A stretch of DNA of 64,000 bases, taken from assembly GCF_000196175.1 (NCBI RefSeq), contig NC_005363.1, positions 2,666,001 to 2,730,000 on the forward strand, read 5' to 3'. Positions 1 through 49,107 of the stretch are shown in pieces; position 1 is the first letter of the stretch; each line of letters begins with the position of its first letter. This DNA is from Bdellovibrio bacteriovorus HD100 (GTDB taxonomy: Bacteria; Bdellovibrionota; Bdellovibrionia; Bdellovibrionales; Bdellovibrionaceae). Under the pieces are notes generated by a model that did not search any database, was not told where the DNA came from, and saw only the letters and a program-made list of their open reading frames with translations. Both the position numbers and the translations under genes were made by a program.

Positions 1-53
1 CCTTACCTGCCAGCAATATACCCCTGCCCCGGTGTAACACTCGAGGGGGTAAA

Positions 54-1361
54 ATGCTTCGTACACTCTTAATGTCTGTAATGTTGATGATGGGAACGAC
101 GGCCAATGCGGCTGTTTGGACGGAAGTCAATGAATGGTCCCCAGCCTATGAAGACCGCTTTGCGGAGTGGGTTCGCACGGAATGGCGCACGGACTTCTTC
201 TCCCGCAAGTCTTTGCGTAACGGCCAAAGCAATCCTTATTATGGCCTTCGTGTGGACTGTGCCGACACAGTTTATTCCATGCGTATTATTTTTGCCTATG
301 AAAACCGCCTGCCGTTCGTGGCTCAAGACCCGACTGCAGCTGGCAAAACCATCTCCAACAAAATGAGCCGTTGGGACGGCCAAAGCGAAAATCAGCGCGT
401 GCGCAACTTCCTTTGGTACATCTATGGTGTGATGTCCACGCGTTCTCTTCCGAACGACACCTATCCGGTGGCGATCAGCCGCAACACCATCCGCCCAGGC
501 AGCCTGCTGGCGACATCGAAAAAGAACCACCACTCCTGGACAATCAAAGAGATCCTGCCGATCGGCGTTCCGTACCTGGTTTACAACTCTGTTGTCGGTG
601 CGAACTCTGGCTTCGGCCTGCAAGAACGCCAGTCCTGGCCAAATCCTGACTGGGTGTTTGAGGGTGATTACTCTGTGAACAGTGGTGCGGGCTTCCGTTA
701 CTGGAGACCAGCATCTGCGTTGAATAAACCCGTGTGGCAGACGCCGGGTTACAGCGATGAACAGTTCAAAATTCCTTTGAACAAATGGGTTCGTCACATG
801 CAAAACCGCCTGGCTCTGCGCCAGGAAACAGACGACCAGTTGGTCGCTCGTCTGATCAAGACCACGTGCTCTGGTTTTGCGGATCGCGTGACTTCCATCA
901 ATGAAGGTGTGGATTACCTTAAGCGCAACAACAAGTGCATGGACTATGCAACTTATGACACTTACTCCACGCCAAACCGTGACCGTCGTATCTTTGACGA
1001 CTTCATGTCTTTGCGTCGCGCGTACAAAGAAATTCTGCAAATCAACGGGGGCAACCAGCTGAGCGCTTCCACAAAAGCTCAATTGGACAAAATCTTCCCG
1101 GCGATCTCTTTGTCTGCAGCCCAGGAAACTTCCCGCATGGCCGCTCAGACCGTGACTGCTGCTTCCGTCTGCGTGGTGGATTACCTGCCAGGCCGCAAGA
1201 TGGATCTGGCAGAGTTCAAACGACGTCTGTTCCAGGGCCTGATTTCCAACAATCCGCATGACAGTGGTGAGTACCGCTGGGGTGAGGCTCGTGGACCTTC
1301 GCAGCGTGCAAGAAGCTGCCAATCATGGGACCATTGGGCTCCAGATTTAACTCAGGAATAA
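54..1361 (+). CDS. Secreted protein of unknown function, 435 aa
   Basis: The product starts with a clear signal peptide (hydrophobic run ending in an AxA-type site near residue 19, TANAA), so it is probably exported. A GAGGGGG ribosome-binding site lies just before the ATG. I do not recognise a family. A cysteine in a DCADT motif near residue 63 and a downstream HHSW motif near residue 157 leave room for a papain/NlpC-like Cys-His enzyme, but this is only a thought. Four more cysteines occur in the C-terminal half. It is followed 9 bases later by a second gene on the same strand, so the two are probably co-transcribed. Confidence 0.8.
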   Translation: MLRTLLMSVMLMMGTTANAAVWTEVNEWSPAYEDRFAEWVRTEWRTDFFSRKSLRNGQSNPYYGLRVDCADTVYSMRIIFAYENRLPFVAQDPTAAGKTISNKMSRWDGQSENQRVRNFLWYIYGVMSTRSLPNDTYPVAISRNTIRPGSLLATSKKNHHSWTIKEILPIGVPYLVYNSVVGANSGFGLQERQSWPNPDWVFEGDYSVNSGAGFRYWRPASALNKPVWQTPGYSDEQFKIPLNKWVRHMQNRLALRQETDDQLVARLIKTTCSGFADRVTSINEGVDYLKRNNKCMDYATYDTYSTPNRDRRIFDDFMSLRRAYKEILQINGGNQLSASTKAQLDKIFPAISLSAAQETSRMAAQTVTAASVCVVDYLPGRKMDLAEFKRRLFQGLISNNPHDSGEYRWGEARGPSQRARSCQSWDHWAPDLTQE

Positions 1362-7285: not shown

Positions 7286-8821
7286 CTACCATTCCAGTTT
7301 GCCGACCGCGTTTTCCACGACGGCCATCAGTTCTCCAGACACCATCATGGCTTTGATCGCCTCGACGTCTTTAGAGAAAATGCGGTCTTCTTTTGCAAAC
7401 GGCACAGTCTTGCGAATGTGCTCGTGTGCAGCCTTCACCGCAGCAGACGGTTTCAGCGGAGCCAACAAATCCAAAGCCTGAGTTGCCGACAACAATTCCA
7501 TCGCTACGACATTTTCTGCGTTACGCAGAATCTGTGCGAACTTACGGGCAGCAATCGTACCCATGGAAACGTGGTCTTCTTTTTCTGCCGACGTCGGGAT
7601 GGAATCCACGCTCGCCGGGTGCGCCAATACTTTGTTTTCGCTCACCAAAGAAGCGGCTGCCACCTGCACGATCATGTGACCGGAATTCAAGCCCCCGTTG
7701 GGGGTCAGGAACGGAGGAAGCTCACTCATCTGGGTGGAAATCATTTTGGAAATACGGCATTCGCTGATGCTCGCCTGGGAAGACAACGCAATCCCCGCAA
7801 AGTCCATTGCGTGCGCCACTGGCATCCCGTGGAAGTTACCGCAGGAAAGAACTTTGTTCGCATCCGCAAACACCAACGGGTTGTCCGTGGAAGAATTCGC
7901 TTCAGTTTCCAAAACCTTCACCGCATATCTCAAAGCGTCTTTAGCGGCGCCGTGAACAGCAGGCATACAACGCAAAGAATACGCATCCTGAACACGCGGA
8001 TCATTGACGGCGTGGCTTTCAGCGATCGGGCTGGTTTCGCCCATAAGTCTAATCAAATTGCGGCCGGTCTTGCCTTCACCGGCGTGAGGGCGGCTGGCTT
8101 GAATCAATGGATCAAATGGTTTTCTGGAACCACGCAGGCCTTCCAAAGACATCGCACCGGCAAGATCCGCCAACCACAACAGGCGGCGATTTTCCCACAA
8201 AGACAAAAGACCGATGGAAGTCATCACCTGACAACCGTTGATCATGGAAAGACCTTCTTTGGCTTTCAGCTCCAGCGGAGTGATGCCTTTTTGTTTCAAC
8301 AACTCAGTCACATGCACCGGCTTGCCGTCAGCACCCCACGCTTCGCCTTCACCAATGATGGTCAACGCCAGATGAGAAAGCGGAGCCAAGTCCCCAGACG
8401 CACCCACAGAGCCCTGAGAAGGAACCACCGGGATGATGTCGTTGTTCAGGAACTCAAGAATTTTTTCTACAACCAGTGGACGAATGCCGCTGTGGCCTTT
8501 AGCCAAAGCATTCGCACGCAGAACCATCATCGCGCGAGTTTCCGTTTTCGTGAACGGAGCCCCGATACCCATGGAGTGGGAGCGAATCAGATTTCTTTGC
8601 AGCTGTTCAATTTCAGCATCCGAGATGCGCACGGAAGAAAATGCACCAAAGCCGGTATTCACACCGTACATTACTTCACCACTGGCAATACGACCCTCGA
8701 TATAGTCGCGGGACTTTTGCATATTGGCTCTTCCAGAAGCAGAAAGCTCCGCTTTGATGGAAGGGTTGTGAGCGATTTCATATAGGTTTTCGAGCGTGAT
8801 ATTCTCACCAGTAATTTGCAT
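7286..8821 (-). CDS. hutH: Histidine ammonia-lyase
   Basis: Deaminates L-histidine to urocanate and ammonia, the entry step of the hut pathway. The Ala-Ser-Gly triad that cyclises into the MIO cofactor is visible at residues 141-143 within GSVGASGDLAPLSH, and YGVNTGFG near residue 52 carries the catalytic tyrosine. Length 511 aa is normal. GAGAGG lies upstream of the ATG. It is the promoter-proximal gene of a hutH-hutU pair; hutI and hutG are not in this window. Confidence 0.96.
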   Translation of the reverse strand: MQITGENITLENLYEIAHNPSIKAELSASGRANMQKSRDYIEGRIASGEVMYGVNTGFGAFSSVRISDAEIEQLQRNLIRSHSMGIGAPFTKTETRAMMVLRANALAKGHSGIRPLVVEKILEFLNNDIIPVVPSQGSVGASGDLAPLSHLALTIIGEGEAWGADGKPVHVTELLKQKGITPLELKAKEGLSMINGCQVMTSIGLLSLWENRRLLWLADLAGAMSLEGLRGSRKPFDPLIQASRPHAGEGKTGRNLIRLMGETSPIAESHAVNDPRVQDAYSLRCMPAVHGAAKDALRYAVKVLETEANSSTDNPLVFADANKVLSCGNFHGMPVAHAMDFAGIALSSQASISECRISKMISTQMSELPPFLTPNGGLNSGHMIVQVAAASLVSENKVLAHPASVDSIPTSAEKEDHVSMGTIAARKFAQILRNAENVVAMELLSATQALDLLAPLKPSAAVKAAHEHIRKTVPFAKEDRIFSKDVEAIKAMMVSGELMAVVENAVGKLEW

Positions 8822-8885
8822 ATTCAGAGCCTCTCTTAAGAAGCCCGCATCCTAACGCAAACACTCTAAAACTGGCAAAGAATCG

Positions 8886-8977
8886 AAAAGGTGCCTGGTG
8901 ACTTTTTACGTCTACAGCGCAGCATTTTCAGCCCTTTTTGACGCGGCGTAGGTGTAAAAAATCACCAGGCACCTTTT
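8886..8977. repeat. 92-bp inverted-repeat element upstream of hutH
   Basis: Two 24-base arms (8886-8909 and 8954-8977) are reverse complements with a single mismatch; each holds GGTGCCTGGTGA. The 44-base centre also pairs in part. The two arms could form a long hairpin in either strand. It has no coding capacity and sits between hutH and the outer-membrane protein gene, so it resembles a small non-autonomous repeat (REP/MITE-like). Confidence 0.75.
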
Positions 8978-8982
8978 AAACG

Positions 8983-9011
8983 AAAAAAGCCACTCCAACG
9001 GAGTGGCTTTT
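8983..9011 (-). terminator. Terminator of the barrel-protein gene
   Basis: GCCACTCC and GGAGTGGC pair as a perfect 8-bp stem with a 3-base loop, flanked by A6 and T4 runs. On the minus strand the stem is followed by T6, matching the end of the gene at 9033-9554. Confidence 0.85.
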
Positions 9012-9032
9012 GGATTGGAATTTGATTGGTTT

Positions 9033-9554
9033 TTAGAACTCCAGAGGCAGGGATACGGAAACAACAACGGATTCGTTTTTAGCGTCGATGTCGATACCGT
9101 CAACTTCGTCGAATGTTTCTTTCAGGTATTCCACGTTCAAAGACAGGAATGGCAGACCCGTGAAGCCTACGCCCAGCTTTGTGCTTTTACCTTTCATTTT
9201 ACCGCTGTCCTCAAGATCGATGTCGTTCATGAAACCGTAACCCAACCATGCGCGAACCAGGATCGGGAAATCAAGACCGACAACACCGTATACGGTAGTT
9301 CTTTTCGCAGACTCATCAGGTCCGGAATCCAACTCAGATGTTCCACTGATACCCAAAGTCCCATCAAGACCCGCCCAGAACATCACTGGGGATCTGTAAG
9401 CCAGGCGCAAACCCAACTGAGTTCCATTAATTTTCCCATCTGGATCTGTGGTTTTACCCATTTCGTAACCAAGATACGGCTCTAGCAGAATGTCTGCGTG
9501 AGATACGCTCCCGAAACCCATAACAATCGCCAACGTGACCAAGAGCTTTTTCAT
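9033..9554 (-). CDS. Probable outer-membrane beta-barrel protein, 173 aa
   Basis: A signal peptide (MKKLLVTLAIVMG, cut near SHA at about 20) leads into alternating polar/hydrophobic strands with glycine turns. The chain ends in phenylalanine (LPLEF), the usual signature of BAM-inserted barrels. Size suggests about eight strands. AAGGAG precedes the ATG and a strong terminator follows, so it is a single-gene unit. Function unknown; small porin-like or structural barrel are the options. Confidence 0.75.
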   Translation of the reverse strand: MKKLLVTLAIVMGFGSVSHADILLEPYLGYEMGKTTDPDGKINGTQLGLRLAYRSPVMFWAGLDGTLGISGTSELDSGPDESAKRTTVYGVVGLDFPILVRAWLGYGFMNDIDLEDSGKMKGKSTKLGVGFTGLPFLSLNVEYLKETFDEVDGIDIDAKNESVVVSVSLPLEF

Positions 9555-9688
9555 AAAGTCTTCTCCTTTTGTAACCCAAAAAATTTAGGCATCCTTTAGA
9601 ATTTTGAAGAGACTCTTTCGCAGGGTCAACGACTCAAGTCCCACCCTACCGAAAGCCCAGTCCAGATACACACGACCTTGGAGCGCTT

Positions 9689-10228
9689 ATGTTACGAAGT
9701 TACAAAGATGACCGCGAATACTACGCCTCTTTGCCAAAAAAACGCATCGGGGTGGGCGTACTTCTTTTCTATAAAGGTGAGCTTTTGATCGTACAACCCA
9801 CCTATAATCCGGCCTGGATTTTACCTGGTGGCACTGTCGAAGCCGAAGAGTCCCCCAGCGAAGCTCTGCAACGGGAGCTCAAAGAAGAACTGGGATTGAA
9901 TATCCAGGCAGGCTCGCTGCTGGCGGTGGACTATGTCAGCAACCGCGACGTCAAAGGTGAATACATGCAGTTGCTTTTTTCCGCCAAAAATCTGACCGAA
10001 TATCAGGCGCAAAACATCCGCCTGCCCATGTATGAAATAAAAGATTTCAAATTTGTCGCCGTTGAAAAGGCACTGGAAATGCTCACCCCGATTGTCAGTC
10101 GCCGCGTGCACAGCGTGATGCTGGCGCAAGAACAGGGGCTGGGGGCTATTTATCTGGAAGAGGGTCGTCCGTTTTACGACCCTTTAAGACTGGCAATCGC
10201 CGATCCGTACTCTTTGCCAAAGACATAA
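9689..10228 (+). CDS. Nudix hydrolase
   Basis: Hydrolyses a nucleoside diphosphate linked to some other group; substrate unknown. The Nudix box G-x5-E-x7-REL-x-EE-x-GL is intact at about residues 48-70 and binds the catalytic magnesium. Length 179 aa is normal. GGAG lies before the ATG. Its last 55 bases overlap the 3' end of rpe on the opposite strand, so both C-termini are encoded by the same DNA. Confidence 0.88.
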   Translation: MLRSYKDDREYYASLPKKRIGVGVLLFYKGELLIVQPTYNPAWILPGGTVEAEESPSEALQRELKEELGLNIQAGSLLAVDYVSNRDVKGEYMQLLFSAKNLTEYQAQNIRLPMYEIKDFKFVAVEKALEMLTPIVSRRVHSVMLAQEQGLGAIYLEEGRPFYDPLRLAIADPYSLPKT

Positions 10229-12393: not shown

Positions 12394-13473
12394 TCAGCGT
12401 TTCAGCTTTTTGAGAAGAACGAAGGCCACACCCAACATAACTATGTTGGGGGCCCACGCCGCCGCCACTGGAGGCAGGGTCCCGTGCTGCCCTAAAGTAA
12501 TCCCTGACGAATAGAACACGTAATAGGCGAAAACCAGGGCCAGACAGATCCCGACATTCAGCATGGTGCCCCCGGACCGGGCCCGGCCCACACTGAAAGG
12601 AATACCCAGTAAACACATGACCAGGCCGGCAAAGGCGAAGCTGATTTTGGAATGATAATCCACCTCATAGGCCACGGTATCCAGGCCCGCCGCCTTGTTC
12701 TTGTCGATGAAGTGTTCCAGCTCTTTTTGTGACATCATATCGGCGGTCTGACCGGCACTTTGCAGGTCCTTGGAATCCTCGGCCATCACGATGCTTTTCG
12801 TTTTAAATGGGCTGGTCAGCGGGAAGCTTGAGTCCTTGTTAAAGATCGTCACTGTCCCCTGCTCCAGCAGCCACTGCGCCCCCTGGATTTTGACCTGAGC
12901 GGCGGTGATCATCTGCACCAGATCCCATTCGTCGCTGAAGAAGTACATCGTCAGCCCCTGGGCCCCGTCCCCTTTGGCATTGAGGGTTTTGATATTGAAG
13001 ATCGAGTTTTTAGAGCGGTACCAGATACGGTCCGTGCGGATCGTGGAAAAACGATGCGGTTCTTTTTTCAGGTCGTAGTACAGGATGTAGTTTTTCTGTT
13101 TGGTCGCCCGAGGCAGAACCCGGTCGGCCGCCATGTACCCCAAAGCTGAAATCACCGCCACCAACAAAAGCATCGGCACCGCGATACGAATCAGGCTCAT
13201 CCCGCTGGCAAATAACGCAACGAGTTCATTGGCTTTATTCAGACTGGTCAGGGTCAGGATCACCCCCAGCAAACAGGCCACCGGCAACAGTTGCGAGATA
13301 ATTCCGGGGAACGAATAGAGGTAATAATTCACCAATGCCGAGGGAGCGACATCCTTGTAGTTGACCATTGTGGACATCGCGTCAACCGCGGTGAAAAGAG
13401 TCAGAAACACCAGAAGGCCACCCACGAAGTAACCTACGAAGAGCCAAGCTGTATAACGATCGATCCTATTCAC
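12394..13473 (-). CDS. lptG: LPS export permease, LptF/LptG (YjgP/YjgQ) family
   Basis: Inner-membrane subunit of the machinery that extracts lipopolysaccharide for transport to the outer membrane. The 359-aa protein has three membrane segments near the N-terminus, a long periplasmic beta-jellyroll region (about 125-265) and three more segments at the C-terminus, the standard layout. The opening DRYTAWLFVGYF is typical. GTG start with AAGGGA upstream. LptF and LptG are hard to separate by eye, so the symbol is tentative. It is first in lptG-def-fmt-rpe. Confidence 0.85.
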   Translation of the reverse strand: MNRIDRYTAWLFVGYFVGGLLVFLTLFTAVDAMSTMVNYKDVAPSALVNYYLYSFPGIISQLLPVACLLGVILTLTSLNKANELVALFASGMSLIRIAVPMLLLVAVISALGYMAADRVLPRATKQKNYILYYDLKKEPHRFSTIRTDRIWYRSKNSIFNIKTLNAKGDGAQGLTMYFFSDEWDLVQMITAAQVKIQGAQWLLEQGTVTIFNKDSSFPLTSPFKTKSIVMAEDSKDLQSAGQTADMMSQKELEHFIDKNKAAGLDTVAYEVDYHSKISFAFAGLVMCLLGIPFSVGRARSGGTMLNVGICLALVFAYYVFYSSGITLGQHGTLPPVAAAWAPNIVMLGVAFVLLKKLKR

Positions 13474-13527
13474 GGCAAATCCCTTAAACTCATTGACTGG
13501 CGGCGGAAATCCAATTTAACTTTGATT

Positions 13528-14628
13528 ATGGCTTTACGCGTCTTGCTTGCAGATGAGAGTTCCACAATCAAAAAAGTAATGCAACTGGCATTGTCTGACT
13601 TCGGGGTTGAAGTTAAATCGGTCCCCGTGGGCCTTGATGTATTGCAAGTAACTAAGACCTTCAAGCCGGATATCGTGTTCGCCGATGTGTTGTTGACCAA
13701 ACGTTCAGGCTACGAAGTTTGTGCGGATCTGAAAAACGACGCTGAAACTGTCAATATTCCGGTTGTGCTGATGTGGAGCGGTTTCATGGAAATCGACGAA
13801 GCCAAGGCCACCGAATGCCGTGCGGACCGTCGCTTGGAAAAACCTTTCGATGCCGACCACCTGCGCTCTCTTGTTTCAGATCTGGTGCAAAAAACGAAAT
13901 CCAATCCAGTTTCCAATTTCCTGACTTTCCCGGAAATGCCAGAGTTTGAAGAAACTCCAACTGAAAACACCCCTGCAGCAGAGCAGGAAGTTTACGCTAT
14001 TCCAGAGGAAAAAAGCGATTTCCTGAACATCCCGGAAATCGACGCTGAAGAGGCCAACCTGCTGGAAGTTTCCGGCGAGGAATTCGCGGCCGTGCCGTTG
14101 ACCAATCCCAAAGCGGAAGACGAACACGACGAAGGCGGCTGGGCTCATCAGGATCTGACCAAATTCAAAATCCAGATCCCTGAGGCGGACGGCAATGACT
14201 TTGCCTCCAAATTTGTGATCCCTCAGGATGACGAGCTTTCCGGCCACATCGAGATGGATGGCGACTTTGAAGAGATTAGCTTTGTGAAATCCGCTCCGGA
14301 AGTGACCAAAACCAAAGCACCTTCGGCTGCTGCGGACTCCTTCATTTCCAACGTGGAAAAATCCGTCAAAGATCAAATGATGGAAACCCTCAAAAAGGGT
14401 GCAACAAAAAGCACCTCTACGGGTGCGGCTCCGCAGCCCGCTTCTAATGCTAAGCCCAATACTCAATCCAAGATGGACTTAGACCCCAATATGATGGAAA
14501 AGATTATCCGTGAGGAAGCTCGCGAAGTGATCGAATCCATCTGCTGGAAGGTCCTTCCGGAGATTGCTGAGCGCATCGTGCGCGAAGAAATCAAAAAGAT
14601 CCTCCGCGAAACTGAAAAGTCCATTTAA
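13528..14628 (+). CDS. Response regulator with acidic linker, RomR-like
   Basis: Residues 1-120 form a receiver domain: acidic pair D9/E10, phosphoacceptor D53 in IVFADVLL, and the conserved lysine in LEKPF near residue 107. A long Glu/Asp-rich, low-complexity linker (about 125-330) follows. The last 45 residues are a compact amphipathic segment (EEAREVIESICWKVLPEIAE, then RIVREEIKKIL). Receiver, disordered acidic middle and conserved helical tail is the layout of RomR, the polarity regulator of myxobacteria that also works in Bdellovibrio invasion. RomR identity is inference. The ATG at 13528 is chosen because upstream sequence is antisense to lptG; no strong ribosome-binding site is visible. 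Confidence 0.75.
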   Translation: MALRVLLADESSTIKKVMQLALSDFGVEVKSVPVGLDVLQVTKTFKPDIVFADVLLTKRSGYEVCADLKNDAETVNIPVVLMWSGFMEIDEAKATECRADRRLEKPFDADHLRSLVSDLVQKTKSNPVSNFLTFPEMPEFEETPTENTPAAEQEVYAIPEEKSDFLNIPEIDAEEANLLEVSGEEFAAVPLTNPKAEDEHDEGGWAHQDLTKFKIQIPEADGNDFASKFVIPQDDELSGHIEMDGDFEEISFVKSAPEVTKTKAPSAAADSFISNVEKSVKDQMMETLKKGATKSTSTGAAPQPASNAKPNTQSKMDLDPNMMEKIIREEAREVIESICWKVLPEIAERIVREEIKKILRETEKSI

Positions 14629-46667: not shown

Positions 46668-46743
46668 TGGGGTATCGTCAAGTTGGTAAGACAACAGATT
46701 TTGATTCTGTCATTCGCAGGTTCGAGTCCTGCTACCCCATCCA
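46668..46743 (+). tRNA. tRNA-Gln (UUG anticodon)
   Basis: The acceptor arms TGGGGTA and TACCCCA pair over 7 bp; the anticodon arm CAGA-TTTTGAT-TCTG gives anticodon TTG, reading CAA glutamine codons; the T arm GCAGG-TTCGAGT-CCTGC is intact. The discriminator is T and CCA is encoded. The 3' part of this gene is copied twice downstream. Confidence 0.95.
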
Positions 46744-46774
46744 TTTTTCCTTTAAAAAATAAGACAACATAGAC
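46723..46774. repeat. Direct repeat, copy 1 (tRNA-Gln 3' end and flank)
   Basis: From the T loop (CGAGTCC) through CCA and 31 bases beyond, this 52-base stretch recurs at 46956-47006. Differences are one C/T change in the acceptor, a few substitutions and one indel. The crossover-like start in the T loop is typical of attachment sites used by tyrosine recombinases. Confidence 0.75.
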
Positions 46775-46810
46775 ACCAGGAAACTCGCTTCGGGCATTGC
46801 TACGTCTTCA

Positions 46811-46970
46811 GGGTAGCAGGACTCGAAGAGAGCAATCGTACCCGTTTGCGATCCGACCAACGGGAGGATTGTAAATGGGGCGGCAGGCCCGGATGGCCTG
46901 ACGAGATTGCGGCCCCGGCTCTGGAAGGTTGGGCAGGAGCCCAACCTGGGAAGACCGAGTCCTGCTACCT
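46811..46970 (+). ncRNA. Candidate cloverleaf-like RNA closed by tRNA-Gln-derived arms
   Basis: The left arm (46812-46825) is the inverse of the tRNA-Gln 3' end and pairs over 14 bp with 46956-46969. Inside are three hairpins: 46833-46871 (CAATC/GATTG and CCCGTT/AACGGG), 46877-46916 (GGGGC/GCCCC enclosing CAGGCC/GGCCTG) and 46927-46946 (GGTTGGGC/GCCCAACC with tetraloop AGGA). After the right arm come CATCCA and a T5 run. No open frame explains it. Function unknown. Confidence 0.5.
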
Positions 46971-47006
46971 CATCCATTTTTCCTTGAAAAATCAGACAAC
47001 ATAAAC
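46956..47006. repeat. Direct repeat, copy 2 (displaced tRNA-Gln 3' end)
   Basis: Repeats the tRNA-Gln 3' end from CGAGTCC to CCA and the flank with CCATTTTTCCTT and AGACAACATA. The 5' half of a tRNA is absent, so this is not a second gene. It could be the far attachment site of a small integrated element. Confidence 0.75.
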
Positions 47007-47128: not shown

Positions 47129-47157
47129 TTGCCAAGCCTAGCGGTCCTATATATATA
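47129..47157 (+). promoter_or_regulatory. Promoter candidate of the HEPN gene
   Basis: TTGCCA (47129-47134) and TATATA (47152-47157) are 17 bases apart, and the start codon lies 28 bases further on. Confidence 0.5.
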
Positions 47158-47185: not shown

Positions 47186-48391
47186 ATGGACGTAACGTAC
47201 GACGAGCTTATCCAAAACATTGAACACTGGCATGCAGCGACTCCACATGAAGCACTTGCTGAGGCCGAAGAGCGCAAACAGAACAAGAAGTTTGTGGGAA
47301 CAACAGGATCTCATTTTGATGTCTCCGCCGAGCTAACACCAGTTGACATCTATTGCATTCTCAAAAGTAAATTTGGGGAGCCTAATGGCATTCAAATGCT
47401 CTTTAAGAAGAAAAATGATGTAGACAATCTTATTCATTGGGCTTGGGAGCTTAAATACAAAAATACCTACATACACATCACTGGTTTCTTCTTCCATTTT
47501 AGTGTGTTGATAAAAGGATCTAAAGATCCAAAAAATGATGATCAACAAAAGTTCCTAAAAGCTTTTTTAACTCTAAAAAAGAAGGTGAAACCTGAGATTG
47601 AGACAGTAAAATCCACCCTAGAAAAGTGGCTCATTTTCTCCAATCCTTACGTTCAATTCTCAGACATGGTAGAGGAAATTATTGACGAACTTGAAGCGGA
47701 GCCAAAACTCAAAAGAATCGAAAACAGACCCGCAAGATTCACGTCTTCTTTTCAAGAAGACGTGACGGCAAATTCAAAGCACTTTGCTGACACATTTAGA
47801 AGAAGAATTACATTAAAACTAATAATTCCAATTTGGATTGAGTCTTTTATTAATCTAATAATATTCCTCTGCGCAAAACCAAGTATCCGCGAAACTGAAG
47901 AGCTCACCAATTTCAAAATTTCCCCATGGAGAAATCGACTTAAAAATATCCATTCAATGTGCATGCACGTGTCTAAAGTCGATATGAGTTCAGAGAAAAT
48001 TAAGCAAATTGAGCCTCTGTTCAAAAATAGGAACAGACTCTTACATGGAGGTATTGCACCTACTATAACTGGTAAACAAATGTATTTTGCTCAGGGGCAC
48101 ATCCCTCTGCTTGATGAAAATCTTTATATGACAGACTTTTTCCATGATATTTCGCTTCACGGCTTAGATGTAGATGAACTTTATAATGAAGTCGAATTGG
48201 CGCGGAACTTCATCGCTTTCATGCTGGAATTGATTGAACCAAAATTTGTTCGCATGATGTTACCAATTCTAAATGACTCGACACCTGGTTGGGATGAAAA
48301 AAGAAAGATCGCCGGCCAAGTTATTCCGAAGCATATAGTTGATATGTTTCCAGTGTTTGACCCCATCTCCACCGAAAAAGAAAAAAGCTAA
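47186..48391 (+). CDS. Orphan HEPN-motif protein, 401 aa, AT-rich
   Basis: I recognise no full-length family. The motif KNRNRLLHGG has arginine 282 and histidine 287 in Rx4H spacing with a polar residue after Arg, the catalytic signature of HEPN ribonucleases, set in a helical C-terminal part (about 200-370). The N-terminal 110 residues are mixed alpha/beta. No signal peptide. AGGAAG precedes the ATG. Base and codon use is much more AT-rich than neighbours, pointing to transfer. It stands alone beside the tRNA-Gln repeats. A defence or abortive-infection role is inference. Confidence 0.75.
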   Translation: MDVTYDELIQNIEHWHAATPHEALAEAEERKQNKKFVGTTGSHFDVSAELTPVDIYCILKSKFGEPNGIQMLFKKKNDVDNLIHWAWELKYKNTYIHITGFFFHFSVLIKGSKDPKNDDQQKFLKAFLTLKKKVKPEIETVKSTLEKWLIFSNPYVQFSDMVEEIIDELEAEPKLKRIENRPARFTSSFQEDVTANSKHFADTFRRRITLKLIIPIWIESFINLIIFLCAKPSIRETEELTNFKISPWRNRLKNIHSMCMHVSKVDMSSEKIKQIEPLFKNRNRLLHGGIAPTITGKQMYFAQGHIPLLDENLYMTDFFHDISLHGLDVDELYNEVELARNFIAFMLELIEPKFVRMMLPILNDSTPGWDEKRKIAGQVIPKHIVDMFPVFDPISTEKEKS

Positions 48392-48648
48392 TGTCGAAAA
48401 CCTTTAAGCTAACAAAATGAGAAATCAAGATAAAGGCTACTCAACCTCTCTTTAAAGCAACTCGAGCCCTATAAAAACCTAACTGCATTAGTTAGCAAAA
48501 CACCCTTTGAGTGAAACCTTTCGATCACAACTTGCCCCCTCCCAAATTTACAAAACCCACCCCCTTCACCCCCACTTTCAAACACTTAATTTGCGTTTTT
48601 CCGGGATAAACAATAAATCATCTAGCAACCAAAACCCTGGAGAAACCT
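48392..48648. other. AT-rich intergenic region after the HEPN gene
   Basis: Non-coding. A 6-bp hairpin (CTAACT/AGTTAG, 48479-48495) may end the HEPN transcript. I looked for a third copy of the tRNA-Gln repeat as the right end of an island and did not see one. AT content falls back to normal at about 48640. Confidence 0.5.
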
Positions 48649-49011: not shown

Positions 49012-49107
49012 AACCAGTTAAAACTACAAAAGGACCAAAAGCCCTTGCCCATCCCCCCGTTTTTATGGGAGTTTCGCCCGTCATCCCCTAAAAACAGGAA
49101 ATACGTT

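Follow-up and report, generated by a model that had tools for sequence, protein, structure and literature searches.

HEPN effectors recur in bacterial and eukaryotic immunity, and the usual question about them is what switches them on. ApeA is a single-gene HEPN abortive-infection protein. The RNase LS proteins RnlA and LsoA (PDB 4i8o, 6y2p and 5hy3) are anti-T4 HEPN mRNases, and in RnlA two N-terminal domains precede the HEPN domain. RNase LS proteins with a TBP-like N-terminal domain have been described (PMC3710099), and RnlA is among the proteins with such a domain (PMC7221094). AbiA (PDB 8oz7) is an RT-like polymerase fused to an apparently inactive HEPN domain; the motif of this domain is intact (RNx6H-type), and RNase activity was undetected (PMC11077055). 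AbiA shows that an intact HEPN motif does not guarantee detectable RNase activity, and the same caution applies to the family described below. DS-11 (DefensePredictor) is a one-protein CBS-HEPN defence that needs a ligand-contacting Tyr as well as HEPN residues (PMC13092281). In the published description (PMC3710099), helix 3 of a HEPN domain ends in Rx4-6H, and the R is typically followed at once by a polar residue (N, D or H); many families, not all, also have an acidic residue in helix 2, typically as Ex3[KR].

The gene considered here lies in a 64,000-nucleotide stretch of Bdellovibrio bacteriovorus HD100 DNA (contig NC_005363.1, positions 2,666,001 to 2,730,000; this whole stretch is called the window, and Table 1 uses its numbering). 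It begins with ATG and stays open over its full length, with no internal stops. The initial annotation had called it a lone gene that is much more AT-rich than everything around it, and both statements are correct: its GC content is 38.1%, compared with 51.2 ± 1.5% in other segments of 1206 bp (minimum 46.4%; z = −8.6), and the ORF list of the window has no partner ORF beside it. The gene is solitary within the window, and its surroundings there are not a defence island. It is probable that this gene belongs, as a divergent member, to an undescribed one-gene HEPN family that defends against phages (or mobile elements), and we view its product as the predicted RNA cutter encoded by an AT-rich foreign gene. 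The computed basis of this reading is a protein of two domains, an invariant signature, a sparse distribution, a defence-island, plasmid and prophage context, the lack of a conserved partner, and the gene's place as cargo in a tRNA slot.

Table 1. Coordinates of the 401-aa protein gene, its parts and the neighbouring tRNA-Gln features in the window
Feature	Position	Strand	Basis or remark
tRNA-Gln(TTG), anchor of variable slot	46668..46743	+	ends 442 bp upstream of gene
tRNA-Gln 3'-end inverted copy, 17 nt	46811..46827	-	repeat pair
tRNA-Gln 3'-end copy, att-like	46956..46991	+	36-nt direct repeat of 46723-46758, 94%; directly left of cargo
Cargo segment, 38% GC, only in this genome	46980..48536	+	flank breakpoints 46967/46979 and 48537/49015
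Promoter-like TTGCCA-17-TATATA	47129..47157	+	upstream of gene; imperfect 9/12 match, absent from promoter-scan list
401-aa protein gene (N-terminal alpha/beta domain + predicted C-terminal HEPN domain)	47186..48391	+	stop codon included; ORF and 50-member family
N-terminal alpha/beta domain, residues 1-146	47186..47623	+	AlphaFold models (pLDDT 87 full, 84.8 domain alone); weak TBP-like matches
N-domain family signature, residues 64-85, GxPNG...D-S/V-DNxxHW	47375..47440	+	G64 P66 G68 N81 H84 W85 50/50
Predicted HEPN domain, ~residues 150-355	47633..48250	+	VIA rows AbiA, Csm6, LsoA and RnlA cover ~150-361; helix order of model
E219, invariant acidic residue	47840..47842	+	long second bundle helix, 187-229; 50/50
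HEPN Rx4H motif R282-N-R-L-L-H287	48029..48046	+	C-terminal end of helix 270-287; R282, N283, H287, G288 50/50

The Rx4H motif that had been claimed for this protein (R282 to H287, in KNRNRLLHGG) is in place. A lone Rx4H is weak evidence because 44% of composition-preserving shuffles contain at least one (the stricter R[NDH]x3H occurs in 7%), and the window protein has a second Rx4H, at 251, that is outside the invariant residues. The motif at 282 is more than chance because R282, N283, H287 and G288 are identical in 50/50 full-length members of the family (~364-417 aa; the window protein and 49 relatives, the gene in each relative being called as the longest ORF). Seventeen columns of this alignment are invariant, namely G64, P66, G68, N81, H84, W85, E146, N153, P215, E219, C259, R282, N283, H287, G288, P307 and G368. 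The protein thus has the R-x4-6-H of HEPN domains (R282/H287), a polar residue after the R (N283) and an acidic residue in helix 2 (E219), the last in the form Ex3N and not the usual Ex3[KR] (position 223 is N in 45/50 members and G in 5/50). The invariance of the R, N, H and helix 2 E in so divergent a family suggests catalysis.

The AlphaFold model of the full protein (pLDDT 87.4, pTM 0.82) is helical in the C-terminal half, as had been expected from the sequence, and the motif stands at the end of the third main helix of a bundle, with helix 329-348 next. Foldseek found no match to the full model at E below 0.001. In the VIA comparison the top seven rows are all HEPN proteins: AbiA is the best structural match (Z 7.8, rmsd 3.9, 119 residues) and is followed by Csm6 (5.9), LsoA (5.7), RnlA (4.8, 4.7 and 4.7) and a second Csm6 (4.7); the next rows, at Z 4.5, are another RnlA and AbiV. 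For a helical domain these Z values, all below 8, are under the advised level, and helical bundles can reach them by chance; since they may reflect a common helical arrangement, the fold claim rests on the agreement among the matches, the position of the motif and its invariance. Alignment by hhalign to a two-sequence ApeA-type HEPN template places motif on motif with a probability of 1.3%, which is not significant. The lack of a HEPN four-helix bundle at 200-370 had been named in advance as a reason to abandon the HEPN assignment; the model has a HEPN-type bundle at ~150-355, with VIA Z below 8. The C-terminal half is modelled as a HEPN-like bundle with an intact and invariant RNxxxHG signature.

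The similarity to AbiA includes the RN...H motif and, on our reading, a role in phage defence; AbiA differs in having six residues between R and H, and the present family lacks an RT domain. Since the AbiA HEPN domain keeps its motif and showed no detectable RNase activity (PMC11077055), the HEPN domain here might likewise be structural or bind nucleic acid only, with the activity residing in the N domain, for example in a centre built on N81, H84 and W85. G64, P66, G68, N81, H84 and W85 are indeed as invariant as the HEPN motif. Neither Foldseek nor VIA, however, recognised a known catalytic fold in the N domain, and the complete invariance of the R, N, H and helix 2 E points instead to catalysis by the HEPN domain, so we consider this alternative very unlikely.

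For the N domain alone Foldseek again gave no match at E below 0.001. Its VIA matches (Z ≤4.9), platform domains among them, are for the most part to the N-terminal domain of OGG1 and to domains of adaptin and the BBSome, and comparison with the middle part of RnlA (99-181) gives Z 3.3. On these matches and general knowledge of folds, we infer that the domain may be weakly TBP-like, and we propose that the N-terminal half is a sensor or RNA-recognition half. The whole is best read as an architecture like that of RNase LS (RnlA) without the antitoxin, RnlA/LsoA sharing with it the C-terminal HEPN domain, a preceding alpha/beta domain, similar size and an anti-phage context. The family nevertheless has one N-terminal domain where RnlA has two, carries its own GxPNG...DSDNxxHW signature, has no RnlB-type partner gene, and shows no Pfam match to RnlA in any of the 50 members (E up to 0.1).

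These same likenesses could mean that the protein is the toxin of an RnlA-type toxin-antitoxin system, with its antitoxin encoded at another locus or provided by a host protein, in which case its main role would be to stabilise mobile elements and phage defence would be secondary. The HEPN domain and possible TBP-like N domain follow the RnlA order (the VIA row for 6y2p pairs 1..349 with 63..357, in addition to the above match to RnlA 99-181), TBP-like N domains occur in described RNase LS members (PMC3710099, PMC7221094), and the gene is found on conjugative plasmids. This explanation is unlikely in our estimation, given that no member has an RnlA-type Pfam match and that no small neighbour recurs beside the gene.

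Three other systems resemble the protein in layout or motif. Of the tested systems DS-11 comes closest in layout, joining a regulatory domain to a HEPN effector in a single protein. It belongs to a different family, and none of the 50 members has a CBS Pfam match (E up to 0.1). Csm6/Csx1 (CARF-HEPN) proteins share the sensor-HEPN layout and the structural match at Z 5.9, whereas no CARF or Rossmann domain was recognised in the family and no link to CRISPR was seen. ApeA and the Apea-like HEPN family (PF18739) have the RNxxxH motif and weak Pfam matches to 3/50 members (best E 0.096); no member matches at E below 0.09, however, and the window protein itself has no PF18739 or PADLOC match.

The N-terminal half had been said to match no known family, and this extends to the whole protein, for which Pfam, NCBIfam, PADLOC, PHROGs and PDB sequences gave no usable match, only chance-level ones. 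Single-sequence scans of genome collections with the window protein found no relatives, and a tblastn search of plasmids found 5 full-length relatives (23-28% identity, E 1e-24 to 1e-34). A profile built from these 5 gave 49 loci when run on GTDB species genomes, and viral contigs added 6. The 49 full-length relatives in the alignment are 19-27% identical to the window protein, and the hosts include Alpha-, Beta- and Gammaproteobacteria and at least seven other phyla besides the window's own (Balneolota, Cyanobacteriota, Nitrospirota, Chlorobiota, Myxococcota, Thermodesulfobacteriota and Parcubacteria). The gene is present in one copy in 29/29 tested genomes. Phage records searched by tblastn yielded no homologues, and neither did 5,426 E. 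coli genomes when two relatives served as blastn queries. Against Pfam the 50 members give stray matches only, with single members weakly matching three HEPN families (MAE_28990, RiboL-PSP and Apea), and NCBIfam has a name for none of them. The family is probably uncharacterised: none of PADLOC 2023, Pfam 2025, NCBIfam 2026 or the open-access literature names it, although more recent catalogues may already include it.

If relatives everywhere had carried the gene as a core gene of normal GC content, the initial annotation would have given up the idea of a defence gene. Neither single-sequence nor profile searches find it in any of 290 other genomes of the phylum (20 belong to the same genus), and family members are AT-richer than their own flanks in 47/49 loci. 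Together with the bundle model and the defence-enriched neighbours of the relatives (below), this non-core distribution supports in kind the earlier suggestion of a HEPN defence-gene candidate.

The window copy is the most divergent member of the family, with a branch of 3.37 changes per site, and it has lost the near-invariant S79 and N289, so its function could be altered or lost. Several relatives (loci L037, L041, L046 and L051-L055) seem to be frameshifted, stopped or truncated, although some of these may be at contig ends; broken copies are often seen among costly defence genes. One could thus regard the window copy as a decaying foreign gene that is non-functional or unexpressed, the real defence family being elsewhere, and the very long branch, the two lost residues and the several broken relatives all favour this. 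We consider it distinctly unlikely, because the reading frame is open at full length and all 17/17 family-invariant residues are retained.

Whether homologues lie in defence islands was examined with the neighbours of each homologue locus (at most the three nearest, of at least 120 aa and within 9 kb), 146 proteins in all. At E up to 1e-5 these hit 222 PADLOC models, including LmuA/LmuB (Lamassu), QatA, MADS, SoFic, PifA, Drt4, BovA and type I-III restriction-modification. The control set, 134 genes taken from 20 regions on those contigs, matches 8 models. Because many PADLOC models are redundant, 222 to 8 should not be read as a number of systems; the difference is large all the same, and the homologues' neighbours are strongly enriched in known defence genes. 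Plasmid copies in Rhizobium and Agrobacterium adjoin Qat genes and an ABC three-component or helicase cluster, and a caspase is found beside plasmid copies. Contigs of prophage type also carry the gene: in viral contig L056 it is near a terminase large subunit (the same gene block is present in L058 and L060), and in L061 it is near a Mu-like transposase. Since no neighbouring gene is shared by more than four loci, a one-gene system is most likely.

Two local arrangements were also seen. On a Caulobacter plasmid the homologue is followed by a HEPN-annotated gene and a HipA-type toxin-antitoxin pair (L006:11383-12309 and 12521-14208). At three Mesorhizobium loci only (L024, L032 and L035, ~8783-9948) the gene immediately upstream, in the same orientation, encodes 371 aa and is a possible local partner.

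If the gene is a one-gene HEPN defence system as we favour, its trigger, RNase activity and protection against phage might be arranged as follows. The protein would rest as an inactive dimer. During infection the N domain would bind a cue that the phage brings or induces (if the domain is indeed TBP-like, a nucleic acid is the simplest choice), or would alternatively lose a phage-sensitive restraint. The two HEPN domains would next come together in a composite, metal-independent RNase site, in which N283 and E219 assist R282/H287. This site would cleave mRNA or tRNA, and the dormancy or death of the infected cell would stop phage production. A more specific version, which we put forward only tentatively, is that the TBP-like N domain itself recognises the cue, which might be phage nucleic acid or an RNA-DNA hybrid, and turns on the HEPN RNase attached to it; an antitoxin, a second messenger or a partner gene would play no part. 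A compact one-gene family with a conserved N domain makes the question of the switch testable with one protein, and a predatory bacterium gains a candidate immune gene.

The initial annotation had also noted repeats of a tRNA 3' end beside the gene and assigned it a promoter of its own. The repeats are real, one direct and one inverted. The promoter sequence is present as written but unremarkable: it is missing from the output of a promoter scan, and promoter-like sites in the region are close to chance level (5 found, 3.5 expected). The flanks of the gene are common to the two closest genomes, G048 and G069 (~91-94% identical), and the cargo between them is different. Similarity to G048 ends at 46967 and restarts at 48537, with 1.8 kb of other genes between; similarity to G069 ends at 46979 and restarts at 49015, with 15.7 kb between, including genes for a patatin and for a protein with weak similarity to the specificity domain of a restriction enzyme. 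In both genomes the left breakpoint coincides with the tRNA-Gln 3'-end copy. This coincidence and the differing cargo between shared flanks indicate that a variable slot anchored by the tRNA recently took up ~1.56 kb of cargo with the gene in it. We rejected the idea of a simple intact integrated element: the left tRNA 3'-end copy is present, but the right end has no matching copy and no integrase is next to the gene, so our claim is limited to cargo in a tRNA slot.

The slot after tRNA-Gln (46668-46991 in the window; loci L082, L083 and L084) varies in cargo among sister Bdellovibrio genomes. It looks like a genus-level integration hotspot, a place of cargo exchange among these genomes. In genome G263 it holds an integrase remnant and, at L084:5172-7671, an AAA_15/AAA_21 ATPase gene (493 aa) that overlaps the gene of a 341-aa partner of no known family; the pair is a candidate two-gene defence system. 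In the G069 slot (L083:10263-12219) the patatin-like phospholipase (372 aa) adjoins a 274-aa protein that has no Pfam match and by eye resembles a metallo-beta-lactamase, and these two are possibly a membrane-attacking defence pair.
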